Shown in pieces: positions 24,319 through 51,285 of a DNA stretch of 64,000 nucleotides; the stretch's first letter is position 1, and every line of letters starts with the position of its first letter. A model generated the notes under the pieces. It saw only the letters and a program-made list of their open reading frames with translations. It was not told the DNA's origin and did not search any database. Origin of the DNA: Planctomycetes bacterium syqfu (GTDB lineage: Bacteria > Planctomycetota > Phycisphaerae > Phycisphaerales > Phycisphaeraceae); assembly GCA_020974905.1 (NCBI GenBank), contig CP087563.1, forward strand, positions 6,076,001 through 6,140,000, in the 5' to 3' direction. Both the position numbers and the translations under genes were made by a program.

Positions 24319-24623
24319 TCACCATTTCGCTGCATCACTTGTGATACGTTGGCTTTACTGGTTTTCCAGATAAACACAATGATCATCACAAACCGTCCTC
24401 CGGACACGATTTTAAGCAACTTTCACTTGACGAAATCCCCAACCTGATTACAGTTATACGTATCCTTCCAAGTCCACCAAACTGGTGGCAACCCCGGCCC
24501 CCCGGGTAATTGGCCAAAACGAACCTGAACAAGCCGGGTTTGAATTCTTGCTCACAAGCAGGATAAACCGTTAAGCCGTACAATAACACGCCTTTGTGGG
24601 CTGACAGAGAGAAAGCATTGTCC
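24319..24623 (+). other. 305-bp leader region before the giant surface-protein gene
   Basis: No gene is visible here. The middle has a GC-rich segment (CAACCCCGGCCCCCCGGG) flanked by short complementary pieces, and the last 80 bases contain CTTGCTCACAAGCAGG. These could fold in a 5' leader, but I could not match any known riboswitch. The first in-frame start is a TTG at 24594; the ATG at 24624 is preferred. Confidence 0.4.
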
Positions 24624-27600: not shown

Positions 27601-29006
27601 AATTGACCCTCAGCCCCAATGGTGATTTCCTCTACGTCGGACTCTTCGAAGGCATTGCGGTTTACAGCATCAATGCGGCGACCGGGCTGTTGACCCATGT
27701 GGAAAATGTCGATGCAGACAGTCTTTCAGACATGCGTGAAATGGCCATTACCCCTGATGGCAAGTATCTCTACGCAGCCTCTAATTTTGATGGCAAACTC
27801 AATGTCTTCTCACGCAACACGACAACCGGTGAGTTGACCTTCCAATCCGCCACCAACACCTATGGTACGCCGTCCGGACTCACCATCAGCCCCGATGGTT
27901 CGAAGCTGTACATGACTGCGATTTTTGCAGACCAACTGCATGTGTTTGATATCCAGTCCGATGGTTCGCTGGTGATCAATCAGACATTGGAACAAGGTGA
28001 AGCTGACGATCTGGCTCAGACCGTCACAGGACTTGACGGCGCGGTGACCGTCCTGCTGGACCCGAACGGGCATGATGTCTATGTGGCATCGCGTGTCGGG
28101 GCTGGCAATATCAGTGTCTTCTCTGATCGCACCCGTGCGTGGACCGGCATTCCCTATGTCCGCGAAGTCACCCCGACTTCCAACAACCACACTGGGATTA
28201 ACTTTGCCAACACGCAGGTGACTGTTGATGTGGATGACGTGCAGTACAACACGCTCAACTACGATGCGGACAAACCGGAGGGTAAATCATTCAACGCACC
28301 CACCAATTGGTCGGATCAGCGAAGCACCATCAACGATATCACCATCACCTTCAACCGTGATCTGATCGATGTTGATAAGACAGCCATCACACTGACTCGT
28401 ATCTTTGATGTCGATGGCAGTCCAATCACCCAAACCGTGACGCTGAATGTCAACGACATCTCCGTGGTGGGGGACACACTGGTGATCAGCAATCTGGATC
28501 TGGTAGACGGCGTGTACGAAGTCGTCATCAGCACGGACTTCAACGCGGGCATGGACAGTGAGTACAGCACGTACTTCCATCAACTCAAGGGGGATCTCAA
28601 CGGTGACCGCCTGTTTAATGCAGTTGATCTTGCTTCCATGGTCTATTGGCAACAATTGGCAGCAGATACCGACAACTACGGCTTTGTCCCCGGTTATCTG
28701 GACATAAGCAATACCCTTGAGCAACCCACTCCTGACGGTCGCGTGGACACACATGATTTTTCTCAGTTCGTCTCTTACTTTGGCAACTTCATCCCACAGG
28801 ATGCCGTGCCGATCCCGGACATTATTCTCAGTTCGCTTGAATCTCAGCCCCCGGTGACGGCTGCCATGATGGCCTTTACTGCTCCCAAGTCGGCGTCATT
28901 GCAATTGGCCTGGTCGGATGATGAGGAGGAAAGCAGTGACAACACGCTGCTGGATCAACTGGATGATTCGAACATGGTGCTCCAGATGATTGCGTCGGAT
29001 GAATGA
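24624..29006 (+). CDS. Giant exported surface protein: cyclophilin, beta-propeller and dockerin-like domains
   Basis: A 1460-residue modular exported protein. A basic N-tail leads to EPLEDRMLLSA (43-53), the planctomycete-type leader of large exported proteins. Residues about 105-285 form a cyclophilin peptidyl-prolyl isomerase domain (GTMVFELFEDLVPDATA; FHRVINNFVIQTG with the catalytic Arg161). Then come cadherin/Ig-like segments (about 530-715), an SdrD-B-like domain (VVFNDLNDNGNADSGEGMEG, about 719-795), and a seven-bladed lactonase-type propeller (about 820-1170, repeats such as ITISPDGRHVYVTCDNAG). A further beta-sandwich leads to a dockerin-like pair (GDLNGDRLFNAVDLASM and DGRVDTHDFSQFVSYFG, about 1320-1392). 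It probably acts at the cell surface in folding or adhesion. A strong terminator follows. Confidence 0.85.
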   Translation: MAKHSWFSRFTRRWGQAISQRSQSLRTRRRAARKRFGSVHMIEPLEDRMLLSAPTLEAIDNVTVNHSSPLIIGLDGEDADDDNLTYSVSIDGQNLTAEILGANDGVNYNRSLVLDVQYTLGGTTYTGTMVFELFEDLVPDATARIIEMVEAGHYDDLAFHRVINNFVIQTGSYEYDSGYTATSHNYSSFDDQFHVDLQHNDTGILSWAKRTPDDSASTDFFITDLDPTNQTSVNNLRNLDFNYSIFGKIVEGENVLQAITQVNTGTVNGLSNAPTTAVTITDARIETNEQNASLMLKVGDDYSAGEEVEVTVTADDGNGGTTSQTFTVVLQTDNDDVNAQINQSEYGADDQYSENVNNSDPYIATMNAVVVPFGTNVFKIQGVSYDADGYKDVDFSQYLTEGGTAQTGTATEQVSIAIFDGEVFSTASQWANYLDTTRYAIEDLEALPDGLTYTNNTSSSTRFTGSSYNSSTGTLSIEISMTRTDASLVGVYYIMIARYNVVGSPVNGQGYYSTGFDTQVVTMILQPETPSAITVNNLNSGQTNDSTPSVTVSGLTIGLGLRILDENDNVVGELDNITDATTTLSIDALADGAHTLRAVQYAVNDNTDEEAVSEVATSSEFTVDTEAPQAFTDVAFTDATSGVLYTYDVGHPQEDDSSITYSLSGAPAGMTINPDTAEITWNTPTDSHYPSVTFDIIATDTAGNTTTAEDVTITVNSFVDLSGVVFNDLNDNGNADSGEGMEGVLVFADINGNNILDETDIVDTTSASGSYSLPNVPAGTVVLHQTLADGYEQQSPSSDRLTMVQVITDGDDATVNNQATTVDGLTWAGALAMSNDGLFVYATSGISASSSDDGIAVFSRNPNDGTLSFVQFVDGITELNDPNAITISPDGRHVYVTCDNAGSDGIIIFSRDQNTGELTEVGSIVDGGLDAAGNTVGNIAGTVKVVVSSDNEFVYVASRFDDSVSVFERDRNTGNLTLVQELFDAVDLNGASQLTLSPNGDFLYVGLFEGIAVYSINAATGLLTHVENVDADSLSDMREMAITPDGKYLYAASNFDGKLNVFSRNTTTGELTFQSATNTYGTPSGLTISPDGSKLYMTAIFADQLHVFDIQSDGSLVINQTLEQGEADDLAQTVTGLDGAVTVLLDPNGHDVYVASRVGAGNISVFSDRTRAWTGIPYVREVTPTSNNHTGINFANTQVTVDVDDVQYNTLNYDADKPEGKSFNAPTNWSDQRSTINDITITFNRDLIDVDKTAITLTRIFDVDGSPITQTVTLNVNDISVVGDTLVISNLDLVDGVYEVVISTDFNAGMDSEYSTYFHQLKGDLNGDRLFNAVDLASMVYWQQLAADTDNYGFVPGYLDISNTLEQPTPDGRVDTHDFSQFVSYFGNFIPQDAVPIPDIILSSLESQPPVTAAMMAFTAPKSASLQLAWSDDEEESSDNTLLDQLDDSNMVLQMIASDE

Positions 29007-30360: not shown

Positions 30361-34482
<4,122 letters not shown>

Positions 34483-35055: not shown

Positions 35056-35634
35056 TTGCCTGAGAATCAATTCGTCATCGATCCGAAAAACTATCGCCTG
35101 GATCGACGTTTGTTGACAGGATTGAGGCTTGCATTTCTGGTGTGGTTGCCGATGACTTTGTTGGTAACCTTTCTCTGCCTTGAGGACATTGATGCATTTA
35201 TCACTGTTTGGCTGATCGTCGCTTATCTGGGCGCGTTTGGCATCACCTATCAACTTCTCATAGCCAAACGCAGAAATATCCTTTTCGTGGAGGATAATGC
35301 GCTGGTATTGATAGGACTGCGATGGATTCCGGGGGGCAGGGTGGTGATCCCCAGAAGCAAATTGATCGCATTGGAACTCGATCGTGATGGCGATGGGGAT
35401 AAACGTTCGTATGTTCGCCTATGCTTGATTTACCGCTTTCTCAGATGGCAAAGGCGTATTTATCTGGCGTATCTGGTTGATACAAAAGGCAAGCATCAAA
35501 TCTTTCGCCAAATGCGGGATTTCCTTGCGTTACATGGCTACAAATCAGTGATCACAAAGCAAGCCAATCATCCGGGCCGGCTATGCTGCTGGTTTTACAA
35601 CACCACGGACATTGCGTCACACTCTGACGCTTAA
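35056..35634 (+). CDS. Membrane protein of unknown function (PH-like C-terminal half)
   Basis: A 192-residue protein with two transmembrane segments near the N-terminus (about 26-45 and 48-68) followed by a soluble domain (ILFVEDNALVLIGLRWIPGG, then VVIPRSKLIALELDRDG and a final helix FRQMRDFLALHGY). The strand pattern resembles bacterial PH-like membrane proteins, but this is a fold-level guess. The start is TTG 35056, six bases after GGGAG, which is better placed than any ATG. It follows the small His-rich gene by 22 bases and so is probably in its operon; its stop overlaps the end of the convergent giant gene by four bases. Confidence 0.65.
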   Translation: MPENQFVIDPKNYRLDRRLLTGLRLAFLVWLPMTLLVTFLCLEDIDAFITVWLIVAYLGAFGITYQLLIAKRRNILFVEDNALVLIGLRWIPGGRVVIPRSKLIALELDRDGDGDKRSYVRLCLIYRFLRWQRRIYLAYLVDTKGKHQIFRQMRDFLALHGYKSVITKQANHPGRLCCWFYNTTDIASHSDA

Positions 35635-38600
35635 CTCTCCCAATCCTTTACCCCGTCGATGACTTTGTTCATCTCGTTTTTCTTTTTCTCAAACAATGTG
35701 AACACTGTGATGATGGCGATGCCCAGCGCGATGCCTGCGACGTACCATATCCATGTCCAGCCCATGTTCGTCGCAGCATGCCAGATCATGGTCAGTAGAC
35801 TCAGACACAAAAAGCCGGTGCCCAGGAACAGGTACGAGCGGATGCGTTTGGCAAGGCCGATGAAGATACCGACGATGGATAAGCCTGCTAACACCAGTGG
35901 CAACCACGGCGCCTGCGCAACACCAATGAGAAACACATCCAGCGTTGATGAGAGATAAATCGCAAGCAGGCATCCATAGTGAATGAACCGCGACTGATCA
36001 TCGCTGAGTTGTTTACGGTTCAGATAACCGGCAGCAAGAATCGTCAGGGCAAGCGGGATGATCCAAAGCTGCGGGTGTTGGTTGATCCCCAAGCCCGGCA
36101 CGCGATGCAGCAAGTACCAGAGACTGCCGTTAAGTGCCAACGTCGCGAGAATGCCCAGTGCAAACGAGCGTTTCATGACTGCGAGCACCAGGTAAACTCC
36201 ACCGACGGCAAGTAGGATCAGCGAGTAGTCAATCACACTGTTACCAAGGAAAATCTCGACACATGCAACCAATGGTAGCCATGTCCCCGTGTTCATTAGC
36301 GGCTTACCTACTACGCCCAGATTCCGACGCAGACATTGGTGGCCGATGGCTATACCCGCAAGCGCAATCCCCAATACCACCAATGGCCAGTATGCAGCGA
36401 CCAAGCCTTTGAACATCCATGGCATGGTCAGTTTCAAATGCAAAGCCAGCATCCCCCCGAGTACCTGGGCAGCATACACATACAGTTGCTTGTATGAATG
36501 AGGCAAGGCCAGGGGATCAAATCGCTCCTTGATCGCAAAGAAAATAAACGCGACGATCAACACGCTGTCGCAGGCAATCATGCTATATGTCAACATGCTT
36601 GAGAGCGGCAATTGACGGACACCCAACAGTGTCGCCAACTCAAAACCGGAAACATAGAGCAACGCGACTGCACCCAACATGGTTAGAAGCGAATAGGCCT
36701 GTTTGCAAAGTGTCGGCCATGCGTTGGGATCGCGTGTCTCCACGCTTTGATCAATTGCGTGTCCTCGCGGTAGACGACTGACGAACCAACTCATCAGCAG
36801 TGTCAGGAACGTATAGGTTTGCAGATAACCGATCACGCGCATCGGCCAGATCGCCTGGCTTCCCGGTTCAATCCAAATCCAACTGACTTGCAGGGGCAAG
36901 AGACACAACAGGGTTAGCGTGTAAGCCCGCAGACTCTGCCAACGATCCTGCTTTTGCAAAAGCATCATAGCCAACGCATTGATCACAGGCAGGGCACAAC
37001 CAAGACTCCGTGCCGTCAAACTTGGGTGAACCAGGCTGATCCCGATCCCGCAGAAAATCGACAGGATGGAAAACACCGCGTTGGCATAAGGGATGACGGC
37101 ATTGTCAGCAAGGATGTCTTGCAATCGCTGCTTTTTGTGTGTGATATAAAGCACGCCATTTGTCAGCAGAACATAAGCCGAAACCATCAATGCCAGAATC
37201 AACTCAATGGATTGTGGTGGGATCGGGATGGCGGATAACACATGGATCAATGCCATCAAACCCAACGCGTAGAGATAGCCGGGAACCTGTTTTCTGAAGG
37301 TCTCTCCAACACAGGCCATCGCCAACAACCCCGTGAGTCCGATGGCGATCCAGCTTGTGATTGCGGTATGCATAATCGGGTTGGCGACATCGCCATGTTG
37401 CGTTGCGATCATGCTAAAGAGCAGTTGCCCGGAGGTGATGGCAAGAAACAGTGTCGAAGCAATCAACACCATGTGATGAAAAACGGGTAAGCCGCGATCA
37501 GCCGTTTCGGATAAGCGCGCTCTGAGATATTTCCGATCAATCCATAACCATGCCAATGCACAGGCCAATAGGGCAGCCAGATTCACATGCACCAGATTGA
37601 TGATGTACGAAACATCCGGCATATCTGAGAGATTGATAGCTAACTGGTCAAAGCTGATCGAAACACCAATGCATGCCGCTAATCCACCAAGATAAGCAAA
37701 ACTCCGGCGTGGTGCCCATGCACCCAACACCATACTCAGGGCAGTGATCCCCAGGCAAATGCCCATCGACCACCACGGACTTTGAGGATCATGCCAACCG
37801 CCACGTAATGCAAAGAGCATGCCCAGACAGATACAAGTGATGATGGAACTCAGCGTCATCCAGCGTGCTTTGTGACGTTTTTCAGCGGACGCCCAATCAA
37901 TCTTGCTTGAGACGTGATCGATGGTAGTGCTGATCGTATCTCCACATTCCGGGCACGTGCCGTTACCCGTCAGTCCGCGAAGATTGTATTGGCATTGGTG
38001 ACAGTGCAGGTCATGTACGATGGCTGCATGGCGGTTGTCATTGAATGTGGCAATGGTTTGATAAGTCTCCAGCCAAGATTTGTCCGAACCTTCTCGACCT
38101 TCGCGTCCCATGACAAACAACATCATCCAACCCGCGATCACCCAGCCGACCGAGAGTGTGTGATAGCTCAGCCAGTTGCCGGTGTCCCACGGCGTGACCA
38201 GCAGACTGATCATGATCACGCTCATCATGCACCAGAAGCCAACGGGCATGTGATGGCCATGTTTTCGACTTCGAATCTGCGTTAAAGCCCATTCCACAAG
38301 GATCAAACTGCCGACCGCCCAGAGATTGCCGAACGTTGGCAGCAGGTCTACCCCGTCGACTGGCGCGATGAAGATGGCCAAGCCACCCAGGAACATACCC
38401 ATGCAAAGTGAGATGCGACCCAGCAGTAATGGCCATTGCGGATACTGATGACGGATCGCTGGTTTGTTCAGGCCCCTGGCAAGTAACTCCCATGTCAAAG
38501 CCAATACTGCCGAGACGACCGCATTGATCTGAACAAGAAACGCAATGCCACTGATCCAGTTGTTGATGTCACTGAATGCAAAGATGCTCGCTTCGATCGC

Positions 38601-41600
38601 CAGCACACTGATACTTGTCAGTGTGGCGGCAACAGTCGCATACATCCGCTGCGCTTTGGCCAATCCCAGCATGATGATGGAGCAGAGGATCAGTAAGATC
38701 GGGCCGTACATCATGCCATGCAACATCAGGAATGGATAGGTAACATCCGCGAGTATATTGGTGAAAAGGGTGTCGGTGGTTTGTGGAAACTGGACCAACG
38801 CCAACATGCACCCCAACGTCAACACTAAGGCAGGCACCGCAGTCAACGCAAAACACCAGCTGATGTTGCGGTCACTTTGTAGTAGTTCGATAGACGAATT
38901 GCCCTTGTTTTTCAGGCGTTTGGGGATGAGGATCAACGCAGTGACGGCTGCAAGACAGCTTCCTGCAAGTAACCAACGCCAGACATTAATCACGTGATAT
39001 TGCGTGACGAATTGTGCGGCAGTGATCGCGGTAGCAGTGAGCCAACAGAGACTCAAAGCAACGCTGCTACTAATGCGATATCGGTGGAAATACCGGGTTG
39101 CAAAAATCAAAACAGTGATGCCAAGCACTAGCCATGACAGTACGCCTGCAGCATCCAATGCAGAACTGTAGGGATACGCTTCGGAGCCGGGCGGGTAATG
39201 TGCAGCCCCCAGTTCATTGAGAACATGAACGCCAACGCTCCAAACGCCGAATATGACTGAGCAAGTTAAAGTCAGCCATGCCAAGGCATCATCAAGCAAC
39301 GGGAACGGCGCATTGACCACGCGGTCAAGATGATGGGTGATGCGCGAAAGGCGTGATGTTTGATCAACATCTACCTGTGTGCGTTTGGCAATGAGCAGTC
39401 GGATCAGAAGCCATGTGAAGCAGACTCCGCCGACGATCAGACTTTGAATTTGCCAATACGCGGGGGCATGGATGAGTTGTTCGTAGGCAAAGGTGTTGGC
39501 TTGAGAATTGGAGAGATAATGATGACTCGAACACAGCAAGGCAACGAGACCAACTACCTGACTCACACTGAACATGCCCAGTGATGTCATGCATAAGCCT
39601 AGGACCATCCAGAGTCCGGCAATCCAGAATAATCGGAGATTAAAAGCGCCCAGGCTCTCAGGCGAGAGTTGCATGCAAAGTAAGCCACCTGCAATTGTCG
39701 ACAATCCCATCGCGCAGAATGCCCATGGCATGCGGAAATGTTTTTCAAGTTTCGTACGATGGCGACGTTTCATGGGCAAGCATGTGAACACAACACCGGC
39801 GGAGCAAAGGCTCGCGCCGATGAGCAAGCTGGTGACTCTGCTGAATTGCGTCAAGGGTTGCGCGTAAACCAGCCACTGATACAACGCAGCCTGCATGAGT
39901 CCGGCGCTACATATGGTCAGTGCGGGCAAACGCAATTGCCATGCTGCCAGCAGGGTGATCAGGCTGTATAACGCGTAATACCAAGTGATATGTTCCGGAT
40001 CACCTTCACTGCCAAAACCTCTGCCGGTGATGAGCATGATGCTTAAAAGTCCGAACAAACCCGCGATTAGCCAGTCTCCCCGGAAGTGCTTGATCAGACG
40101 TTTGCGCAGATGCCATTGAGCCAACCCGATGCAGATGAGGATCGGGGCGATCAGTGCTTTGCCAGTGAGAACGGACATGAGTTTTTGTACTAGTTCTTGC
40201 GCGTTGTCCATCTCCCAGGCAATGTGCCCGGTGAGCAGATGAACCAACAGTAGCCAAGCCAAAGTCAGCCAACCCATCGCCAAATGGTTCGGCCAAGTGT
40301 TGGTCACATTAAAGCGCAGACTCACGCGACGCAGCACCAGCATCACAACCATGTTGATCAGCAGCGTCGGCAAAAGCATCATCGGGATCGGCCACGCCAA
40401 GCCCGTAGCCAGAAGCATCACGGTGCTGCATGCCAAGAAGATGCTGGTGTTGATGGTGCGTTGCTTGGCGGAGAGTTCAAATGGACCTTGCCAGAGTATG
40501 TAACTGATCATCAAGCCCGGTAGAGTTAACACACTAAGCAGGGGGGCAATGTGTTCGATGGCTTGCACATATGCACCAGTGAGATGGATCGTCAGCCCCA
40601 GCGGCGCAATGCAGGCAAAGGTCTGTGTAAAGAGCATGAATAACAAATGCTTTGACCTGGCATCATCGCTGCATGTTTTCTCCGAGTCTTCAGTTTGAAG
40701 CTTAAACTGCCGGACCATCTTCCAACTGGCCAGCAGGGTGACGATCAGATACAGGCCAATGATCAGACCGCAGATGAGCATCAGGTTGGCTGATTCGTGA
40801 AGCAAAAGGAATTGGAGCAGTAAACTCATGGTGGCAATGGACACAAAACCAGCAGTTTGAATCCGGGGCGAAATCGGCATGATCACGCGCGCTGCAAGAT
40901 AGGTCAGCCATGCGAAAATACCGACGGATAACGCCTGCGTGATGAGTGTCCAATGACCAACGCTTTGCTGATTGAATGAAAAGGCCGCAAAAGCTAGCAG
41001 GTTCAAAGGCACGAGTAGCGTTGCAATACTCAGGATCGCTCGGCCTGTCGTGGGGACTTTCCAGCGGTGATGCACGAACAAACCCGCGCCGAATAAGGCA
41101 GCATTGACCGTGGTGAAAATCATGAACTTGAGAATGGGGATGGCTTGAATCTGTGACCACAGGCTGATCACCAATGCGGCTGAGCAGCAGATGATCAACA
41201 TGCCACCGATGAGTTCGCCCCAGCGAATGTTTTTCTCTGCCATGAACGTTGCCAACACTTCACCCAAGGGGCGTGAGGGCTTGGCAGGTGGTGCCGGGGG
41301 TGTTGGTGTCGGATGTTTGGGGGTATCAGGAAAGGTCGGTTTTGCATCACCGGTTGATGTCGGCAGGTTGGTTTGATCGATGGCAATGTGATGAAGTTTT
41401 TCCTGTTTCTGCGTCAACGTCTCCAATAAATCTTCCGCAGCGTTTTGGATTGGTGATTCTTCGATTGGGGATGCAGGTTGGGGGGCTGGTTTTTCCTCTG
41501 CCGGTTCATCGATTTGAACCCAATGCAGGTTTTCGTCATTGCCAGATTGACTCTTGCGATCATCGGACGCGGTCTGCGTTTCGTTTGGGTTTTGCGTATG

Positions 41601-41990
41601 CTCGACACGTTCGGCCAAAGGCGTTGGCTCTGCTGCTGACGGAGTTGCTTCGTTGAGAATCTTTTCGGTCCATGGCCGGATGTTAGCTGCTTTGGAAGAT
41701 TGACTTGGTGTTGTACTGCCTTGCGCAGTGATGCGATGTTCCGACGAAGTATCTTCGGCGATGGCGTTGAGCAGTTGCAGATGCGTCTCTTTGTTGATCA
41801 GACCCTGATCCAACAGACGCTTGGCATAGCGTGCTGCTGCAGTGCGATCGTTGGCAACAGTCGGTTCAAACGTCGCTTCATTGCGTGGCTTACCCAGTCG
41901 AAAGACCCAGGCGACGACAACCCACATGCCATGTCCCAGAAGCATAATGATCAGTAAAACGAAGAAAAGCCCGAAAAGCAACTCGCCCAT
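35631..41990 (-). CDS. Giant polytopic membrane protein with embedded zinc ribbon
   Basis: A 2119-residue protein made almost entirely of hydrophobic helices, several dozen by eye. The N-terminal ~230 residues are a cytoplasmic Pro/Glu/Thr-rich linker after one helix, with a short helical motif (RYAKRLLDQGLINKETHLQLL). The membrane region opens with AEKNIRWGELIGGMLIICCS. Near residue 1328-1350 a cytoplasmic zinc ribbon CHQCQYNLRGLTGNGTCPECG interrupts the helices, and the protein may be built of two or more related halves. It resembles very large DUF2339-like membrane proteins in architecture. Its function is unknown. It stands alone on the minus strand, and the 235-bp spacer to its left probably holds its promoter. 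Confidence 0.85.
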   Translation of the reverse strand: MGELLFGLFFVLLIIMLLGHGMWVVVAWVFRLGKPRNEATFEPTVANDRTAAARYAKRLLDQGLINKETHLQLLNAIAEDTSSEHRITAQGSTTPSQSSKAANIRPWTEKILNEATPSAAEPTPLAERVEHTQNPNETQTASDDRKSQSGNDENLHWVQIDEPAEEKPAPQPASPIEESPIQNAAEDLLETLTQKQEKLHHIAIDQTNLPTSTGDAKPTFPDTPKHPTPTPPAPPAKPSRPLGEVLATFMAEKNIRWGELIGGMLIICCSAALVISLWSQIQAIPILKFMIFTTVNAALFGAGLFVHHRWKVPTTGRAILSIATLLVPLNLLAFAAFSFNQQSVGHWTLITQALSVGIFAWLTYLAARVIMPISPRIQTAGFVSIATMSLLLQFLLLHESANLMLICGLIIGLYLIVTLLASWKMVRQFKLQTEDSEKTCSDDARSKHLLFMLFTQTFACIAPLGLTIHLTGAYVQAIEHIAPLLSVLTLPGLMISYILWQGPFELSAKQRTINTSIFLACSTVMLLATGLAWPIPMMLLPTLLINMVVMLVLRRVSLRFNVTNTWPNHLAMGWLTLAWLLLVHLLTGHIAWEMDNAQELVQKLMSVLTGKALIAPILICIGLAQWHLRKRLIKHFRGDWLIAGLFGLLSIMLITGRGFGSEGDPEHITWYYALYSLITLLAAWQLRLPALTICSAGLMQAALYQWLVYAQPLTQFSRVTSLLIGASLCSAGVVFTCLPMKRRHRTKLEKHFRMPWAFCAMGLSTIAGGLLCMQLSPESLGAFNLRLFWIAGLWMVLGLCMTSLGMFSVSQVVGLVALLCSSHHYLSNSQANTFAYEQLIHAPAYWQIQSLIVGGVCFTWLLIRLLIAKRTQVDVDQTSRLSRITHHLDRVVNAPFPLLDDALAWLTLTCSVIFGVWSVGVHVLNELGAAHYPPGSEAYPYSSALDAAGVLSWLVLGITVLIFATRYFHRYRISSSVALSLCWLTATAITAAQFVTQYHVINVWRWLLAGSCLAAVTALILIPKRLKNKGNSSIELLQSDRNISWCFALTAVPALVLTLGCMLALVQFPQTTDTLFTNILADVTYPFLMLHGMMYGPILLILCSIIMLGLAKAQRMYATVAATLTSISVLAIEASIFAFSDINNWISGIAFLVQINAVVSAVLALTWELLARGLNKPAIRHQYPQWPLLLGRISLCMGMFLGGLAIFIAPVDGVDLLPTFGNLWAVGSLILVEWALTQIRSRKHGHHMPVGFWCMMSVIMISLLVTPWDTGNWLSYHTLSVGWVIAGWMMLFVMGREGREGSDKSWLETYQTIATFNDNRHAAIVHDLHCHQCQYNLRGLTGNGTCPECGDTISTTIDHVSSKIDWASAEKRHKARWMTLSSIITCICLGMLFALRGGWHDPQSPWWSMGICLGITALSMVLGAWAPRRSFAYLGGLAACIGVSISFDQLAINLSDMPDVSYIINLVHVNLAALLACALAWLWIDRKYLRARLSETADRGLPVFHHMVLIASTLFLAITSGQLLFSMIATQHGDVANPIMHTAITSWIAIGLTGLLAMACVGETFRKQVPGYLYALGLMALIHVLSAIPIPPQSIELILALMVSAYVLLTNGVLYITHKKQRLQDILADNAVIPYANAVFSILSIFCGIGISLVHPSLTARSLGCALPVINALAMMLLQKQDRWQSLRAYTLTLLCLLPLQVSWIWIEPGSQAIWPMRVIGYLQTYTFLTLLMSWFVSRLPRGHAIDQSVETRDPNAWPTLCKQAYSLLTMLGAVALLYVSGFELATLLGVRQLPLSSMLTYSMIACDSVLIVAFIFFAIKERFDPLALPHSYKQLYVYAAQVLGGMLALHLKLTMPWMFKGLVAAYWPLVVLGIALAGIAIGHQCLRRNLGVVGKPLMNTGTWLPLVACVEIFLGNSVIDYSLILLAVGGVYLVLAVMKRSFALGILATLALNGSLWYLLHRVPGLGINQHPQLWIIPLALTILAAGYLNRKQLSDDQSRFIHYGCLLAIYLSSTLDVFLIGVAQAPWLPLVLAGLSIVGIFIGLAKRIRSYLFLGTGFLCLSLLTMIWHAATNMGWTWIWYVAGIALGIAIITVFTLFEKKKNEMNKVIDGVKDWES

Positions 41991-42225: not shown

Positions 42226-44418
42226 TCAGAATTGCAGGCGGTCGCGAACCAGCTGGCGGATGCTGGTCATCCACTGATAGAGCAACGGGCGTTTGGGCAA
42301 GGTCATGCGAACATAAACACGTTCACCGAGCAACGCTGGGGCAGCAATGAGTTGGCCCTGCTGCATCGCAGGTTGCATCTCTTGGGGTAACTCCAGCCAG
42401 AGTTCAAACTGCGGACGCAGGGTTTTCTGTCCCTTGGGGTCTTCGGGATCCATGGCAATCTGACCGCCGGCATTCTTGCTTAACGCAGGATGAGGCAGGT
42501 AGCTTCGCCCCGAGTCAAATGCCATGAGCAGGTTGCTTTCATGCACCTTTTCGACATTGCCCACGGTCCGCAATTCCACCTTCTGGATTTGCTTGGACAT
42601 GGCCGCTGCACTTTGCGATTGGCTGACCAATGCCGTAACGCGCAATTGGGAGAGATCAGCAATACGAGCGATCACTTGACCACGTTGGACGTACTGGCCT
42701 TGCAATTGCTTAAAGTCGGCAGCGATGAGCGTGCCGTCCTGTGACGCGGTTAGTGTCAGGTTATCGATACGATCCTGAATGTCCGCCAACTCTTCGAGGA
42801 TGACACCTTTCTTGGCGTTGGCAATTTTCATGTCCACGAGGTCTTTGATCATGGCCATGCGTTTTTCAATGTCGAGTTTGACCAGTTCCGATTCAAGCTC
42901 AGCCTTGCGTGCCTGCAGTTCAGGATTCTCGGTTTTAAGCAGCGGATCACCGGCTTTGACCTGTTGACCGGGTTCGACGTAGATATCGGTGACAAAGCCG
43001 TTGGTTTGGACTGCAACGTCGGTCCGCTTGGCAGACTCAATGACGCCTTCGGTGCGCTTGTGTTCATCAACCTTGATCACGCCGATGCCGATGAACGCAC
43101 CGATGAGAACAATAAACGTCACGGCAATGGCACGCTTGCGTTGTTCACCGAGTTGCCCGCTGGTAAAGAGCCAGTGGAAGAACTTGGAGCAGGGGACAAT
43201 ACACCATGCGATAAAGGACCATGCACCGAGGAGCAAGCCGATGGTCAGCAGTTGGCCGGAGATAAAGAGGATGATGCCAGCCAGAACGAAGAAGCGGTAG
43301 ATTTGTGACGCGATACCGTAGAGAAGCAGAATCCACTGTTCACCTGCCGCCGTTGCGACCGGTTGAGCATTCTCCATGCCGTAGGCAAAACGCTGGACAA
43401 GCCAACGGGTGTGCCGGGTCGCGCGGTCATACATGTTGGGTACTTCCAGGAAGTCAGCGAGCATGTAGTAACCGTCGAATCGCAGCAGGGGGTTGGCGTT
43501 AAAGAGAATCGTGGTAAACGATGCCATGAAGACGATGTTGTACGCAAGTTGGGCGGTGAGTGATCCGGGGTTGTTGGCCGTTTCGTGAAGCCAGACGAGC
43601 GCAGCACCGCCTGCGACTGCAAGTTCAAACATCATCCCCGCAGCATTAACCAGAAACCGATGCCACCGACTGGCAAAACTCCAACTGCTAGTCGCATCGA
43701 CAAACGGCGCGGGCATCATGATCAGCATCATCACACCCATCTCAGGTACCGCACCGCCGAAGCGTTTGCAGAGGATGCCATGCCCAAATTCGTGAATCGC
43801 CTTGGTGATTAAAAACAGCAGGATCATCCAGCCCCAGTTGGCGGGAGCGAGCACGCTTTCAGCGTCATTCACAAATTCTCCGACATGCGGTAGGAACTGC
43901 CAGAGACAATAGGCCAACCAGATAAACCACAAGCCCAACCCGACTTTGCTCAGCAGGGGTTTGAATAACGGCAAACACCAGGATAAAAAGCGATCCGGGT
44001 TAATCAGCGGGATACGGACAAAGAGAATACTCATTGCCTGGCCGGTCCACTGTTTGAGTTTACGACGGTTGGATCGATCCAGCAGCGGTTTGGCGTCGAC
44101 GGGTAAGTCCACACGCAAGAGGTTGGATTGGTTGAGTTGGCCGAGGATGTGGATCACTTCATTCTGCGTCGGCGCCATGTCAGCATAGCGGTCCGTGGTC
44201 AGACGCCAAGCTTCGTCGACTTGACGTTTACCATCAAGCAGTCCGACGAAGTGATGTGCCACCGGGTTGAGTCGGAAGAAGTTGTTACTGATTGGATCAT
44301 GGACCACATACCAGTGTTCACCACGAAAGAGTTGCCGCGTCATCTGCACGTGCGGCCGCAGTGTCGGGGTGAGTCGACTGACGCGAGACCAATTTTGACT
44401 GAATGTGGGTCGTTCCAT
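42226..44418 (-). CDS. PqqD-like / M50 metalloprotease / HlyD fusion protein
   Basis: A 730-residue membrane protein with three parts. Residues 30-110 look like a PqqD-type winged helix (WYVVHDPISNNFFRLNPVAH, then LLDGKRQVDEA), the fold that binds peptide precursors. Residues about 150-430 are a polytopic M50 site-2-protease domain with HEFGH (His209, Glu210, His213) and NANPLLRFDGYYML (Asp315), so the metal site is complete. From about 450 a HlyD-type adaptor begins (VQTNGFVTDIYVEPGQQVKAGDPLLK, a coiled coil, then the matching half VQRGQVIARIADLSQLRV). It is the last gene of a three-gene adaptor operon and may process and export a peptide or protein. No ABC or RND pump gene is present here. 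Confidence 0.82.
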   Translation of the reverse strand: MERPTFSQNWSRVSRLTPTLRPHVQMTRQLFRGEHWYVVHDPISNNFFRLNPVAHHFVGLLDGKRQVDEAWRLTTDRYADMAPTQNEVIHILGQLNQSNLLRVDLPVDAKPLLDRSNRRKLKQWTGQAMSILFVRIPLINPDRFLSWCLPLFKPLLSKVGLGLWFIWLAYCLWQFLPHVGEFVNDAESVLAPANWGWMILLFLITKAIHEFGHGILCKRFGGAVPEMGVMMLIMMPAPFVDATSSWSFASRWHRFLVNAAGMMFELAVAGGAALVWLHETANNPGSLTAQLAYNIVFMASFTTILFNANPLLRFDGYYMLADFLEVPNMYDRATRHTRWLVQRFAYGMENAQPVATAAGEQWILLLYGIASQIYRFFVLAGIILFISGQLLTIGLLLGAWSFIAWCIVPCSKFFHWLFTSGQLGEQRKRAIAVTFIVLIGAFIGIGVIKVDEHKRTEGVIESAKRTDVAVQTNGFVTDIYVEPGQQVKAGDPLLKTENPELQARKAELESELVKLDIEKRMAMIKDLVDMKIANAKKGVILEELADIQDRIDNLTLTASQDGTLIAADFKQLQGQYVQRGQVIARIADLSQLRVTALVSQSQSAAAMSKQIQKVELRTVGNVEKVHESNLLMAFDSGRSYLPHPALSKNAGGQIAMDPEDPKGQKTLRPQFELWLELPQEMQPAMQQGQLIAAPALLGERVYVRMTLPKRPLLYQWMTSIRQLVRDRLQF

Positions 44419-44435
44419 GTTTGATTCAATTTTTT

Positions 44436-44466
44436 ACCGCCAAGACGCCAAGGTCGCCAAGGTCGG
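44436..44466. repeat. Single CGCCAAG-type repeat arm
   Basis: ACCGCCAAGACGCCAAGG followed by TCGCCAAGGTCGG, in the 91-bp gap between the GAF-HlyD and M50-HlyD genes. It matches the outer arms of the inverted repeat at 53425-53630 but has no second arm nearby. Confidence 0.7.
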
Positions 44467-44509
44467 AAGAGTTTGTTTTATTTCCGAACAAACGTGATGG
44501 TCTGATGTT

Positions 44510-46555
44510 CTACCACCACATCCACAGGCGGACCATGTCAGCAATGCGATGGGTTGCGACCCACCAGATTTTGCGTTTACCCATGTCGATGCGGGCCAGG
44601 CCTTCCATGCCCGGTCGCATCCAGTTGGCACGTTGCCAGACATCATTGTTGGTGCCCGGTTCCACGGGACCTTTGCCGGTCTCCGGGCCGCTGGCTGATG
44701 CTGCGCGGTAGAGGATGCCTTGGAAAATCACGGTGTCATCTTCTTCGTACTCAGCCGTTTTGGACCAGTCGGCGGTCGCAAAGCCACTACGGATTTCAAA
44801 GACGTTCTGTCCATTGATCGGTGTTGCAAGGGGTACGATTTGTCGGACCATGAAGCGGAAATCCTGATCCGGCTGAGATCGTGTGGTCAGATCACCTTCG
44901 GGCAGCCCGCCGGTTTCGTGGATGTAATTTTCGATGGTGTCGATGTCCTGTTCGTTGACGCGCAGGATCGGGATCAAGTCTGTCAGCGGGGCGACTTCGA
45001 ACATGGCTTTGCCTTTTTCGACCACACCACCGACTTTGTCATACCAGTCACCGGTGAGAACCACGCCGTCAATGGGGCTTCGGATGCTGGACTTTTCGAT
45101 CTGGTATTTGAGCAGATCAATGCGTGCCTGCGTCTGATTGATGGCTGCGGCAGCCTGCTGGGCTTCAGCAATCTTGTTTTCAGCCCGAGCCTTTTGACGT
45201 TGCAATGAGTACACATGCAATTGGCTGGTGGCTTCGCCGAACTGGAGTTTGAGTTCCGCGGTGTTGAGGATCGCCAGAATCTGTTTTTTAACGACCTTGT
45301 CACCGGGACGAACTCTGACTTCGTCCAGGTCACCTTCGTATGGTGCAGGGATGATGCGTTTGGATTGAGCTTCCATGGTGAAGTCCGCGGAGATGCGGTA
45401 GGGCATTGAGCCGACGAAGACGTAGATCAACGCTGCCATGATGACAACGCTGAGCATCTTCCAGCCAACGTGCTTGGGACCGACCACGTAGGAGGCCAGC
45501 CACTTGACGGAGTTCCATGCGTGGCCAATGAGCCAGCGGTCGGATTCGTAGCGGTCAGCCAATTGCGGAGCAGCGACGTCAGCGATGAGTTGCAGTTGCG
45601 TGACGAGCAGGCCGTCGAAGGGCTCTTCGCGTTCGAGGGTTAACACGCCGATCCAATCATCACGCAGGCGAAGCGGGATGGAAACGATGTGGCTGCCCTT
45701 GTCGTTTTGCAATAGTTTCTTGTGTGAGTAAATCACCGCTTCAGCCAGCAGGGGTTCAGCATTTTCAGGAACCGGATAGACGACCGGCTGCTGTTGATCG
45801 AGGCATTCGCCCATTGCCACTTCCATCTGGCGGACGTATTCGCTGTGTCGTTTGAGTTCTTCGGTGTCACTCATGGCAACGACATTGATGCCTTTGCCTT
45901 TGACCCAGCCGAGCGTGACGCGTGAGCATTTGAGTTGTCTTGCCAACTCATTGACCAGATTCATCCCCGCGCCCTGAAAGCCTTCTGCTTCCTGAGTCGT
46001 ACCCAGCAGTGCGACGGCATTGCGGACATTCTGAGCATCCTGCTGAGCAATACGTGCCGATTCACGTTGAAGAAAGACTTCGTACAAACCCGCAGCCATT
46101 TCACGCATGGGGACGGTTGCTGTGATCGTCGACGGATCCTGACAGTCGGCGACGACGGTGGTGACACCTGCGATTTTGCCTGCTGCGCGGATCACGGTGA
46201 CGAACACGTGAGCGCCGATGCCTTGCTGATCTTCCTGACCTTCCGGTGAGACTTTGAGCACATGCGATGTCTGACGTTCAAAGCCACTCTTGGCGCTCTG
46301 TGAAAGCAACTCGCGAATCGCTTGGGCGATCTGATCACCTTCGAGTTTGTTGGGCCAACTGTTGAGGATGATCGGTTCGTTGTCCTTGCCTTTGACCCAG
46401 AAGGCGCCATATTCGGCAGCAACGATCTTGCATTGCAGGTCCAGCATCGCCTGGTGGAAGGTCGGCAGGTCCGGGGCATTGTTGATCTTTTCAATCAGGC
46501 CACCCCAGCCTTTGTTCGACGGTTTATTGGTTTGTTGTGTGGGGATTTGTGTCAT
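44510..46555 (-). CDS. GAF-domain HlyD-type membrane adaptor protein
   Basis: A 681-residue protein joining sensing and transport modules. The N-terminal ~360 residues are cytoplasmic, with one or two GAF-like domains (QCKIVAAEYGAFWVKG; ELARQLKCSRVTLGWVKGKG; VSIPLRLRDDWIGVLTLER). A single transmembrane helix follows at about 375-395 (MLSVVIMAALIYVFVGSM). Then comes an extracytoplasmic HlyD-type adaptor: PAPYEGDLDEVRVRPGDKV, a coiled-coil hairpin (RQKARAENKIAEAQQAAAAI) and SSIRSPIDGVVLTGDW. It begins six bases after the stop of the smaller HlyD gene, so it is in that operon. GAF ligand and transported substrate are unknown. Confidence 0.83.
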   Translation of the reverse strand: MTQIPTQQTNKPSNKGWGGLIEKINNAPDLPTFHQAMLDLQCKIVAAEYGAFWVKGKDNEPIILNSWPNKLEGDQIAQAIRELLSQSAKSGFERQTSHVLKVSPEGQEDQQGIGAHVFVTVIRAAGKIAGVTTVVADCQDPSTITATVPMREMAAGLYEVFLQRESARIAQQDAQNVRNAVALLGTTQEAEGFQGAGMNLVNELARQLKCSRVTLGWVKGKGINVVAMSDTEELKRHSEYVRQMEVAMGECLDQQQPVVYPVPENAEPLLAEAVIYSHKKLLQNDKGSHIVSIPLRLRDDWIGVLTLEREEPFDGLLVTQLQLIADVAAPQLADRYESDRWLIGHAWNSVKWLASYVVGPKHVGWKMLSVVIMAALIYVFVGSMPYRISADFTMEAQSKRIIPAPYEGDLDEVRVRPGDKVVKKQILAILNTAELKLQFGEATSQLHVYSLQRQKARAENKIAEAQQAAAAINQTQARIDLLKYQIEKSSIRSPIDGVVLTGDWYDKVGGVVEKGKAMFEVAPLTDLIPILRVNEQDIDTIENYIHETGGLPEGDLTTRSQPDQDFRFMVRQIVPLATPINGQNVFEIRSGFATADWSKTAEYEEDDTVIFQGILYRAASASGPETGKGPVEPGTNNDVWQRANWMRPGMEGLARIDMGKRKIWWVATHRIADMVRLWMWW

Positions 46556-46561
46556 GGCTGA

Positions 46562-47380
46562 TCAGTTCGAGACCTTCTTTTGAGGATCGGTAAAGCTGAC
46601 AACCACCTGGCCGCCGGCGGGGTGATGTGCGTCGTTGGCAAACTCCACGCGAACCAGGCGTGTGTTACTGGCTGAGTCAGCAACGGAGGCCAAATGCACG
46701 ATCGTGCCTATGATAGGTTTGTCCAGTTCATTGGCTAATCGCATCTGAACCCATGCCTTGTCACCGACATTTAAAGACGTGGTATCTTCTAAAGCCACGG
46801 GCACGTCCACGCGCAACGGGTCGGTCACCACCAACTCCACCATGGGTTGAAGGTTTTCCACCACTTCGCCAACGTCCACAAGAATCTGCTCGATCACGCC
46901 ATCCATCGGGGCGCGGAGTGTGTAGCTTTCGTGACGGGCCTCGGTGATCTGTAACTGACGTTTGGCTTCGTCCTGTTCGCGACGTGCTTTTTCGACAGCG
47001 AGTTTCTGGACGGCCGTGGTCAACTCTGCTTTTTTGAGTTCAAAGGGGACTGCTGCGTTTTTGGCAACCAGTTCACGGGTCTTGGCTTCTTCGGTTTCCG
47101 CCAATTCCAATGAAGCCTTGGCCTGATCGATCTCAACGGTACTTTCAGCACGGAACCGCCAGATTTCGATTTGAGCCAAGCCTTCCTTGTCTTCCAGTTC
47201 AATGATGATGTCGCCTTTTTTGACCACATCACCCGGATGGACATGACGCTTGAGCACTTTGCCCGGAACGGTAAAGCCCAGCCTCAAATCGTGACGCGCC
47301 TTGCTGACTGCTTCGATTTGCCCGAAGCAGTTGGCTGCACTGAGGCAACAGATACAGAAAATCGTCAGATAGTTTCTCAA
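46562..47380 (-). CDS. HlyD/RND-type periplasmic adaptor protein
   Basis: A 272-residue exported adaptor of the membrane-fusion type. A signal peptide (NYLTIFCICCLSAANCFGQ) precedes the lipoyl-like half-motif GFTVPGKVLKRHVHPGDVVKKGDIIIELED, a coiled-coil hairpin (EIDQAKASLELAETEEAK onward), and the second half SYTLRAPMDGVIEQILVDVGEVVE, then a beta barrel. I chose TTG 47380, preceded by GGGAG; an ATG at 47434 with a G-rich site is a fair alternative that lengthens the n-region. It is the first gene of the operon with the GAF-HlyD and PqqD-M50-HlyD genes. It should join an inner-membrane pump to an outer-membrane channel. Confidence 0.85.
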   Translation of the reverse strand: MRNYLTIFCICCLSAANCFGQIEAVSKARHDLRLGFTVPGKVLKRHVHPGDVVKKGDIIIELEDKEGLAQIEIWRFRAESTVEIDQAKASLELAETEEAKTRELVAKNAAVPFELKKAELTTAVQKLAVEKARREQDEAKRQLQITEARHESYTLRAPMDGVIEQILVDVGEVVENLQPMVELVVTDPLRVDVPVALEDTTSLNVGDKAWVQMRLANELDKPIIGTIVHLASVADSASNTRLVRVEFANDAHHPAGGQVVVSFTDPQKKVSN

Positions 47381-47597
47381 AACAACGTGTCTCCCAAAAT
47401 ACAAGTCGACAAGGGGGTTGCCGACCTGGCACATGTGTAAGTTTCCCCCGTTTGTGCCAGCTTCATTACAAATGAGCATTCATCGCTGAATATTGTAACG
47501 AGAATCGGTTCTTTGCGTGTGATTTTCCCCCGATTGCCGGAATGGTTTATAATCTTTGGCTCCCACGCAGTCTACAGCCAAAGGATTCGAGCCATAC

Positions 47598-49093: not shown

Positions 49094-49129
49094 CCCGCGA
49101 ATCTCCCAAGGTTCGCGGGTTTGTTTTTT
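49094..49129 (+). terminator. Rho-independent terminator
   Basis: CCCGCGAA and TTCGCGGG pair around a short loop and are followed by TTTGTTTTTT. It is about 90 bases after the GH88 gene and ends that unit before the SDR gene. Confidence 0.88.
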
Positions 49130-49186
49130 ATGCTAAAATGCCCGTCTTCCCTACAGCAGACACGCAAAATGCAAATGAGGTATCGC

Positions 49187-49969
49187 ATGTCTCAACAACC
49201 AGTCAGAACCACCATCGTCACCGGTGGCAGCCGTGGCATCGGTCGCGGCATCGCTGTGTCACTTGGCGCTCAACGCTACAACGTGGCGATCAACTACAAC
49301 TCCAACTCCGCTGCTGCCGATGAAGCTGCCAAGCTTGTCGAAGAAGCTGGCGGTAAAGCCATCACCATCCAGGCGGACATCGGCAACCGTGATGATCACA
49401 AGCGCCTGCTCGGTGACACGCAGGATGCCTTTGGGCCAATCGACCTGCTGGTTAACAACGCTGGCATCGCCCCGACCGTTCGTGCGGACTTGATGGAGAC
49501 CAACGAAGAAAGTTTCGACAAGCTCATTGCGGTGAATCTCAAAGGCCCGTTCTTCCTGACCCAGCTCATTGCAAACCACATGCTGGAAAATAAAGACAGC
49601 TACAAAGTCCAGCCTGCGATCGTCAATATCAGTTCGATCTCTGCGGACACTGTGAGTGTGAACCGTGGTGAATACTGCATCTCCAAAGCCGGCGTTGCCA
49701 TGACCACGCAGCTTTTTGCAGCTCGTTTGGCGGTTGAGGGCATTGGCGTTTACGAAATCCGACCGGGCATTATTGCGACCGACATGACCGGCCCGGTGAA
49801 GGAAAAATATGACAAGTTGATTTTTGAAGAAGGACTCCTGCCGATCCCACGTTGGGGTAAGCCTGAAGATATTGCCAACGCCGTGCAGTCCATTGCTGAT
49901 GGTCACTTCACCTATGCCACCGGCCTGGTTATGCACATCGATGGTGGTTTCCATATTCAGAGACTGTAA
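49187..49969 (+). CDS. Short-chain dehydrogenase/reductase (FabG/KduD-like)
   Basis: A 260-residue NAD(P)-dependent oxidoreductase with all classical SDR motifs: cofactor loop TGGSRGIG, LLVNNAGIAPT, the catalytic Ser in VNISSISA and YCISK (Tyr and Lys), and the C-terminal YATGLVMHIDGGFHIQRL. The start is ATG 49187 with GAGG six bases upstream; an open frame to 49121 adds no family sequence and overlaps the terminator. The substrate cannot be read from sequence. Being next to a glucuronyl hydrolase it could reduce a keto-uronate (KduD-like role), but a beta-ketoacyl synthase gene follows as well, so an acyl substrate is also possible. Confidence 0.92.
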   Translation: MSQQPVRTTIVTGGSRGIGRGIAVSLGAQRYNVAINYNSNSAAADEAAKLVEEAGGKAITIQADIGNRDDHKRLLGDTQDAFGPIDLLVNNAGIAPTVRADLMETNEESFDKLIAVNLKGPFFLTQLIANHMLENKDSYKVQPAIVNISSISADTVSVNRGEYCISKAGVAMTTQLFAARLAVEGIGVYEIRPGIIATDMTGPVKEKYDKLIFEEGLLPIPRWGKPEDIANAVQSIADGHFTYATGLVMHIDGGFHIQRL

Positions 49970-49984
49970 AACAAGACATTTTTT

Positions 49985-50155
49985 TACCACAGAGACATAG
50001 AGACACAGAGAAGAAAAGGTAAGAGAAACACACTTCCGTCATTCCCGCGAAGGCGGGAATCCAGTGGCATGTAGTTGACGTCTGCATTTTCCACTGGACT
50101 CCCGCCTTCGCGGGAATGACGAAAAAAACGCTGTGACGCTGTGTCTCTTTGGTTC
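49985..50155. repeat. ACAGAG-type inverted repeat with an 82-bp-family element (copy C) nested inside
   Basis: The outer arms are TTACCACAGAGACATAGAGA onward (49985-50010) and CGCTGTGACGCTGTGTCTCT onward (50129-50155). Inside lies copy C of the double-hairpin repeat at 50038-50120, with GCGAAGG and CCTTCGC in place of GCGCAGG and CCTGCGC. The two arm changes match each other, so pairing is kept. One repeat has apparently entered another. Confidence 0.85.
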
Positions 50156-50172
50156 AACATTAATAAAACGAA

Positions 50173-51285
50173 ATGCCCTCATCCCGCCACATCATTATCA
50201 CCGGCATCGGCCTGATCTCACCGTTGGGATACAGCGCGTGGGAGACGTTCAGCAATTTGCTTGCAGGACGAACACTGCCCGACCGCATGGCTGAACTGCC
50301 CGAGGATATCCATCCCCTGGAACTGGCCAAGGTCACCGGGAGTATCGGGATTTCCCATGGCACGATGACGGACCCCGCGGTGGAGCTTGCAGAACGCGCC
50401 ATCCGTGAAGCCTGCACACAAGCTCGAATTTCACCAGAGGGTTTGGCAGTGGTCACCGGCGCAAGCAAAGGCGCGGTGACACGGTTTTTCAAAGAGCCAC
50501 AAAACGTAGTCCTCGGGCCGCATGGTTACTGGGCTTCGGAGTTAACGCGACGGCTTAAACTCGGGCCGGTGAAAAACATTGTCGCTGCGTGTGCATCGGG
50601 GTTGTATGCGGTACATCATGCCAGACAGATGCTCCTGATGGGGCAGGTCAAGCGTGTCTTGGTGGCGACCGCTGAAGCAGCATTATTGCCACACTTCATT
50701 GCAAGCTCACAACGTCTTGGCATTCTCGCCAAACTCACCAAAGCGGATTATATTGGTCGCCCCTTGGATGAAGCGCGTGATGGGTTCATGCTTTCGCAAG
50801 TCGGTGGTGCGGTTCTGCTCGAAGCGACGGACAAGCTTAAACGTGGTGATTGGCAGTTGCTCGATACCGCGGTTGGATGTGAAGCGCACGACATGATCCG
50901 ACCTGCGCCGGGGATGCCGGTGTTAACACGGTTGGCTGAGCAACTCATCGGTGACCGTCACATTGATTTACTCCATCCCCATGCCACCGGCACGCGTGAT
51001 CAAGACCCCATGGAGTTGGCGGTGTATCGCAAGCATGCGCCCGATGCTGATGTCTATGCCAACAAGGGCGCACTGGGGCACACGCTAGGCAGCAGTGGGT
51101 TGGTGTCTCTCATTTTGGCGTGTCTGTGCGCCAAAGCCAAACGCCGTCCGCCGATGCCGTGGTTGCAGTCACCCATTGAGCCACAGATTCAAGCGCAACT
51201 CAGGCAGGGGGATTACAGCACGCATGCGATCTTTGCCACGGGTTTTGGCGGTCACGTCGCCGGCGCGGTGATGGGGCGTGTGTGA
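50173..51285 (+). CDS. Beta-ketoacyl synthase
   Basis: A thiolase-fold condensing enzyme (370 residues, slightly shorter than FabF at ~410) that joins acyl and malonyl units. The complete Cys-His-His triad is present: Cys140 in VAACASGLYAVHHA, His270 in LLHPHATGTRDQDPME and His303 in NKGALGHTLGSSGLV. The N-terminal IIITGIGLISPLGYSAWETF and the C-terminal THAIFATGFGGHVAGAVMG are family-typical. It stands after an SDR gene with a repeat-filled gap, and no acyl carrier protein gene is nearby. It could take part in fatty acid or specialised lipid synthesis, but the product is unknown. Confidence 0.9.
   Translation: MPSSRHIIITGIGLISPLGYSAWETFSNLLAGRTLPDRMAELPEDIHPLELAKVTGSIGISHGTMTDPAVELAERAIREACTQARISPEGLAVVTGASKGAVTRFFKEPQNVVLGPHGYWASELTRRLKLGPVKNIVAACASGLYAVHHARQMLLMGQVKRVLVATAEAALLPHFIASSQRLGILAKLTKADYIGRPLDEARDGFMLSQVGGAVLLEATDKLKRGDWQLLDTAVGCEAHDMIRPAPGMPVLTRLAEQLIGDRHIDLLHPHATGTRDQDPMELAVYRKHAPDADVYANKGALGHTLGSSGLVSLILACLCAKAKRRPPMPWLQSPIEPQIQAQLRQGDYSTHAIFATGFGGHVAGAVMGRV

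Follow-up and report, generated by a model that had tools for sequence, protein, structure and literature searches.

A planctomycete operon with an RRE-protease-adaptor fusion and its proposed role in the SecA-powered export of LEPR-XLL proteins

Organization of the operon

The DNA analysed here (the window: 64,000 nucleotides of contig CP087563.1, positions 6,076,001 to 6,140,000) belongs to the 7.38 Mb genome of Planctomycetes bacterium syqfu, a planctomycete genome on a single contig. It contains an operon of three intact open reading frames (ORFs) on the minus strand, which follow one another in the order of transcription HlyD adaptor, GAF-HlyD protein and fusion protein, with gaps of 6 bp and 91 bp; this order agrees with the initial annotation of the window. 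The fusion joins a domain related to PqqD and to the recognition elements (RREs) of ribosomally synthesized and post-translationally modified peptides (RiPPs), an M50 protease and an HlyD part. We propose LEPR-XLL proteins, some of them giants, as the substrates of a secretion module to which this operon would belong.

The ORF of the adaptor spans positions 46562-47479 (minus strand), but the TTG at 47380 is more likely its start, because a signal-like peptide (LRNYLTIFCICCLSAANCFGQ) comes next. From this codon the gene (46562-47380, minus) encodes an HlyD/MFP-type periplasmic adaptor of 272 aa (RND_mfp 3.9e-36, HlyD_3 2.1e-17). The GAF-HlyD protein (44510-46555, minus; 681 aa; GAF PF01590 2.1e-8, RND_mfp 4.5e-13) carries its GAF domain at around residues 199-329, followed by a single hydrophobic segment at around 367-385 and the HlyD part at around 390-580. 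The fusion gene (42226-44418, minus) encodes 730 aa, with matches to PqqD (3e-6, above cut-off) and HlyD_D23 (4.6e-14).

The fusion is known from 80 named loci of many phyla. The question whether the gene set stays together in relatives, on which the initial annotation had placed weight, can be answered in the affirmative: it is conserved across phyla, and since the adjacency of the operon genes is kept in relatives, the arrangement is not due to chance. The GAF-HlyD protein accompanies the fusion in most relatives, and adaptor homologs are found near the module in many of them.

Domains, zinc site and predicted fold of the fusion protein

The M50 match of the fusion (1.5e-5, 24.9 bits) lies just below the Pfam cut-off of 27.2 bits, but the assignment is supported by the active-site residues and the RseP-like model described below, and also by the daptide RRE-metalloprotease model NF041824, which matches residues 18-399 with an E-value of 4e-52 and 177.6 bits and so misses the equivalog cut-off of 300 bits. 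The complete HExxH and the downstream Asp claimed at the outset are the zinc-binding motif HEFGH of the M50 part (residues 209-213; 43780-43794, minus) and Asp315 of NPLLRFDGYY (43474-43476, minus). H209, E210, H213 and D315 are invariant in both alignments, which comprise 30 and 56 homologs, and HExxH is present in all 58 fusions longer than 650 aa (58/58) that were called among the 80 named loci.

An AlphaFold model of the whole fusion (56 sequences) reached a pLDDT (predicted local distance difference test) of 89.8, and residues 1-106 modelled alone reached 93. In the model, the N-terminus has the beta3-alpha3 winged-helix fold of RRE/PqqD domains, with three strands followed by three helices at around residues 20-101 (44116-44361, minus), which bears out the PqqD-like segment and the RRE fold suspected in the initial annotation. 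It resembles the RREs of the lasso B1 RRE-leader complexes 6jx3, 5v1v and 5v1u (TM score by target 0.67-0.73, Z 9.4-9.7; 0.70-0.73 and 9.5-9.7 for the first two) and PqqD 5sxy (Z 8.4, 89 residues aligned). The highest ranks among the fold matches, however, go to the C-terminal domains of enzymes such as GdmN; the RRE fold thus occurs beyond leader binders, and no function is shown by the fold alone. Residues 190-325 of the modelled protein resemble RseP 7w6y (Z 10.5, 131 residues, root-mean-square deviation 3.2), in agreement with a site-2 protease whose HExxH and Asp lie in membrane helices. The C-terminal part (residues ~447-730; 42229-43080, minus) is predicted to be HlyD/MacA-like and periplasmic (Foldseek ~1e-12), its residues 448-720 matching MacA with Z 15.9-16.4 and MexA with Z 14 in the model. 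A sequence search of the PDB with the fusion gave MacA-type adaptors alone as matches of note, RseP and the RREs being added by fold comparison.

A second SecA and the outer-membrane channel

No pump gene adjoins the operon in the window, and no ABC transporter partner lies next to it. The initial annotation had considered the transport partner to be missing or elsewhere; it is elsewhere, and it is a SecA-type ATPase, not an ABC or RND pump. A search for pump genes near the set in relatives, as had been recommended, yielded in most close relatives a secondary SecA of 630-750 aa as the next gene after the fusion (genomes G077, G095, G002, G034, G185, G231 and G242, and also G111, G278, G130, G081, G220 and G230). 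These proteins possess the SecA DEAD, P-loop and preprotein cross-linking domains and little or no wing/scaffold.

The genome of the window has two SecA genes, a full-length one inside the window (30361-34482, plus) and one for a SecA2 of 664 aa (G000:C1:438333-440327). The best matches of this SecA2 are the fusion-adjoining SecA genes of relatives (56% in G077, 50% in G095, and others), so that the motor is present, but apart from the operon. The same split is found in a sister metagenome-assembled genome (MAG; L133, fusion 53% identical), with the adaptor operon on one contig and SecA2 on another. The window SecA (1373 aa, with wing domain) was set aside as a candidate motor, because the fusion-adjoining SecAs of relatives match the other copy best. 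It has enlarged domains, its P-loop match covering 299 residues for a model of 205 positions, as fits the re-arranged SecA domains reported for some planctomycetes (PMC4452313). A strongly diverged SecA-like partner is found at two loci with an otherwise intact module (L069:11157-13109 and L154:12170); the one at L069 reaches just 9e-23 with SecA_DEAD and has no SecA P-loop match. Many relatives have TolC-family (OEP) genes together with the module.

LEPR-XLL proteins in the genome

The SecA2 gene is followed by a small ORF, a DUF3467 gene (4.5e-17) and an ORF of 19,805 aa with the motif LEPRVLLT (whole locus G000:C1:438333-501310). This giant ORF (G000:C1:441893-501310), exceptionally long for bacteria, is intact, contains a single cysteine, begins with a basic N-terminus and then ...NHELETLEPRVLLTTLVGG, is rich in D, T, G and S, and has a metzincin-like region (HELGHLLGFNH) near its C-terminus. 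A Sec signal peptide at its N-terminus was rejected, as hydrophobicity is too low (maximum 19-residue mean hydropathy of 0.8 within the first 100 aa); lacking a classical signal peptide, the protein is unlikely to be targeted by the ordinary Sec route. The second contig of the sister MAG carries SecA2 (61% identical), DUF3467 and a LEPRVLLT ORF of 5,596 aa with ...LTLESLEPRVLLTTLHGG, in this order. DUF3467 also recurs beside SecA2, GAF-HlyD or a giant ORF at L080:13142-13567, L037:6719-7177, L054:12550-12933 and L229:18285-18659.

In the window itself, a gene at 24594-29006 (plus) encodes a candidate substrate of 1470 aa, which reaches 17.5 bits with the LEPR-XLL model NF012209 (G000:C1:6100747; cut-off 17). 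It comprises a basic N-region and IEPLEDRMLLSA, its leader LEDRMLLSA being encoded at 24756-24782, and then cyclophilin, Ig and beta-propeller domains. Several more LEPR-type N-termini occur across the genome, compared with a single fusion and a single SecA2, a ratio in keeping with a general route of export. The consensus of 30 aligned leaders is [LFVI]-E-[AP]-L-E-P-R-[IVL]-L-L-[SDT]-[AG], and LEERIVLDAV, MEERIVLDGV and LESRILLCAA are variants found beside the module in genomes counted as LEPR-negative. At L222 (G000:C1:2280905), LEPRVLLSG lies in a 94-aa frame, one residue past a stop codon, and could mark a broken LEPR gene.

Linkage of LEPR-XLL proteins to the fusion

Of the 294 planctomycete genomes sampled, 68 encode the fusion. 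Genomes with an NF012209 match over the 17-bit cut-off (LEPR-positive) possess it in 36 of 39 cases, as against 32 of the 255 others (p=7.5e-24); 40 LEPR genomes had been tallied, one of which was unlisted and so counted as negative. Co-occurrence at the level of planctomycete families (19/2/11/60) gave p=3.7e-10. The association recurs in the alphaproteobacterial Histidinibacterium family (198 genomes), where 18 of 19 strong LEPR genomes and 8 of the remaining 179 carry the fusion (p=1.8e-18).

The linkage is physical as well. Within the Histidinibacterium family, 16 of 22 LEPR ORFs, most LEPR genes there encoding 4,000-18,000 aa, end at most 3 kb from the fusion gene, and 15 share its strand. 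As a check of the prediction in other phyla, loci were inspected whose upstream ORF continued beyond the DNA retrieved; in 10 of these the same ORF proved to carry LEPR, in frame and at residue 26-102, with 3,521-14,338 aa between motif and stop. Giants at L159, L166 and L185 fell outside the analysis, since the contigs end there. Of 156 long ORFs near modules, 18 carry the motif within their first 130 residues, compared with none of 381 module genes, and it is absent from 514,053 internal residues. ORFs were called by a longest-ORF heuristic, with which antisense ORFs mask a number of module genes where loci are rich in GC (e.g., L172, L186); the MAG assemblies are incomplete.

Other genes near the operon

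Directly downstream of the operon lies a gene for a multi-helix membrane protein of 2119 aa (35631-41990, minus) with no family match above cut-off and with an internal CxxC zinc-ribbon-like stretch; its position is occupied in relatives by SecA2 or other genes. At 49121-51285 (plus), an SDR oxidoreductase-like ORF precedes a ketosynthase-like one, and the two may belong to a cluster for fatty acids or polyenes.

Proposed mechanism and alternative explanations

We consider the operon to supply that half of a SecA-powered exporter similar to type I secretion systems (T1SS) which sits in the inner membrane and the periplasm; the exporter would handle proteins with an N-terminal basic region and, after it, a LEPR-XLL leader of the general form [LFVI]-E-x-L-E-P-R-x-L-L-[STD]-[AG]. 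The probability of this reading is put at roughly 0.75. With somewhat less assurance, we regard it as probable that the RRE-guided intramembrane protease-adaptor fusion, the second SecA and the LEPR-XLL leader define a distinct secretion system for giant surface proteins (up to 19,805 aa), and that it extends over planctomycetes, verrucomicrobia, proteobacteria, nitrospirota, fibrobacteres and others.

As suggested by fold and linkage, the cytoplasmic RRE of the fusion would capture the LEPR leader, much as the RREs of RiPP systems bind theirs, LEALEPRILLSA being a LEPR-type peptide expected to bind this domain. The short SecA2 would then use ATP hydrolysis to drive the unfolded chain across the inner membrane, with SecYEG or the M50 membrane region as the pore, and the M50 intramembrane protease would cut the leader. 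The HlyD parts of the fusion and of the GAF-HlyD protein, together with the separate adaptor, may line the way through the periplasm as a duct that ends at a TolC-type channel. An escort role for DUF3467 is possible, and for the GAF domain, to which the initial annotation ascribed the sensing of a signal, a role in this route is conceivable. A precedent for leader binding and cleavage is found in the daptides, whose precursor motif ELExMEAP occurs beside RRE-site-2-protease fusions. There, leader removal is assigned to MpaP, MpaB requires Leu(-7) and Met(-4) for its RRE-dependent processing, and the cut is made after Pro (PMC10036551). ELExMEAP and LEALEPR have a phi-E-x-phi-E spacing in common, and by analogy with the daptides one would expect the RRE to keep the LEPR leader at the membrane and the M50 part to cut it.

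Several observations weigh against the proposed exporter. In the genome of the window, SecA2 is far from the operon, and no TolC gene adjoins it, the 24 OEP matches being elsewhere. The giant beside SecA2 scores 12.4 bits with NF012209, below the cut-off of 17, despite its literal LEPRVLL. Concerning the linkage, the Fisher p-values take genomes as independent, phylogeny being considered in the family-level test only. Furthermore, 32 planctomycete genomes possess the fusion without a LEPR match over the cut-off, and variant leaders (LEER, LEDR, LESR) lie nearby in just some such genomes. Conversely, the fusion is absent from the assemblies of three LEPR-positive planctomycetes (G165, G164 and G281), in which a profile search recovered HlyD fragments only.

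Among the alternatives, the least improbable would have the module not export anything itself but finish or anchor proteins that take the ordinary Sec route, with LEPR-XLL as an anchoring or sorting tag and with the HlyD parts tethering the cargo at the envelope. SecA2, as a SecA relative, could indeed feed SecYEG, and the HlyD parts count as adaptors by sequence and fold alone; but the lack of a classical signal peptide in the giant (hydropathy 0.8) and the TolC-family genes that go with the module in many relatives speak for a different route, and we hold this explanation to be unlikely. Still less probable is the processing and export of a small peptide, in which the RRE would bind a short precursor, the M50 part cut it and the HlyD parts pass it on, as in RiPP systems. 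This idea, put forward in the initial annotation, draws on an RRE-M50 part that is closest to NF041824 (E 4e-52) and to YydH/LiaK and on the RRE fold confirmed in the model, and its RRE-protease logic does fit; the likely cargo, however, are long or giant LEPR-XLL proteins. The conserved small precursor ORFs looked for near the operon and in relatives were not recognised there, nor were RiPP tailoring genes, the recurring neighbours being SecA, TolC, DUF3467 and giant ORFs, and the fusion scores below the daptide cut-off of 300 bits.

A sensory system, with the GAF domain as sensor, regulated intramembrane proteolysis by the M50 part and the HlyD parts as scaffolds, would accord with the frequency of GAF and site-2 protease domains in signalling and with the regulatory role that Kamneva et al. 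proposed for the GAF protein (PMC4452313). It is quite improbable, as it leaves the linked SecA2, TolC and LEPR giants unexplained, and as the neighbourhood contains no recognised anti-sigma or transcription-factor substrate. Most improbable of all is an ordinary tripartite efflux set with its ABC or RND pump elsewhere: the adaptor domains match RND/MFP families, but the recurring energiser in relatives is SecA, and efflux pumps lack the protease and the RRE of the fusion.

If the proposed SecA-powered export of LEPR-XLL proteins is correct, it supplies a cargo for a module described in 2015 (see below), a role for the second SecA of Gram-negative bacteria and an exit route for proteins that measure 5,000-20,000 residues and lack a classical signal peptide. 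RRE-leader recognition would then reach from small peptides to giant proteins, and the exporter would serve a class of surface proteins that ranks among the largest in bacteria.

Comparison with known systems

The gene set, which the initial annotation had put forward as an undescribed system, is not new: Kamneva, Poudel and Ward (PLoS One 2015, PMC4452313) reported a secondary SecA_DEAD protein beside M50/HlyD, GAF-HlyD, HlyD and sometimes OEP proteins in planctomycetes, verrucomicrobia and proteobacteria. In their proposal SecA provides the ATPase and M50 possibly the pore, and they stated the broader biological role of the module to be unknown. The genome studied here shares with their module the HlyD protein with M50 similarity, the adjoining GAF-HlyD protein and a short secondary SecA_DEAD protein, whereas SecA shares the locus in most relatives and not in this genome. 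The text of PMC4452313 names neither a PqqD/RRE domain nor DUF3467 and gives no LEPR-type substrate. What is new in our proposal is the cargo, i.e., the NF012209 LEPR-XLL (LEPR-8K) proteins, with one member in the window (24594) and giant ones next to the module. Apart from this module paper and one Vibrio genome paper, which mentions a LEPR-XLL protein of ~8,000 aa, the papers searched gave no link between LEPR-XLL or giant genes and the SecA/HlyD/M50 set. We found no paper tying NF012209 LEPR-XLL to a secretion module (in a literature search that did not cover NCBI's description text of NF012209) and, in the literature, no export route for LEPR-XLL giants.

With type I secretion (HlyB-HlyD-TolC) the module has in common the HlyD-family adaptors, a TolC-type channel in many relatives and large, Cys-poor cargo. 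Despite this similarity there are clear differences: a SecA-type ATPase takes the place of the ABC transporter, the leader is N-terminal whereas classical T1SS substrates carry a C-terminal signal, and an intramembrane protease and an RRE are present. The daptide protease MpaP/NF041824 and the epipeptide protease YydH/LiaK likewise consist of an RRE fused to M50; compared with these proteases, the fusion described here has an additional C-terminal MacA-like adaptor domain, and its companions are SecA2, adaptors and giant proteins instead of RiPP enzymes, no daptide precursor or tailoring genes being recognised among the operon neighbours. Gram-positive bacteria with the accessory SecA2/SecY2 system also devote a second SecA to long surface adhesins, namely serine-rich repeat proteins. 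Unlike that SecA2, the SecA found here has little wing/scaffold, pairs with M50-HlyD adaptors and belongs to Gram-negative cells.

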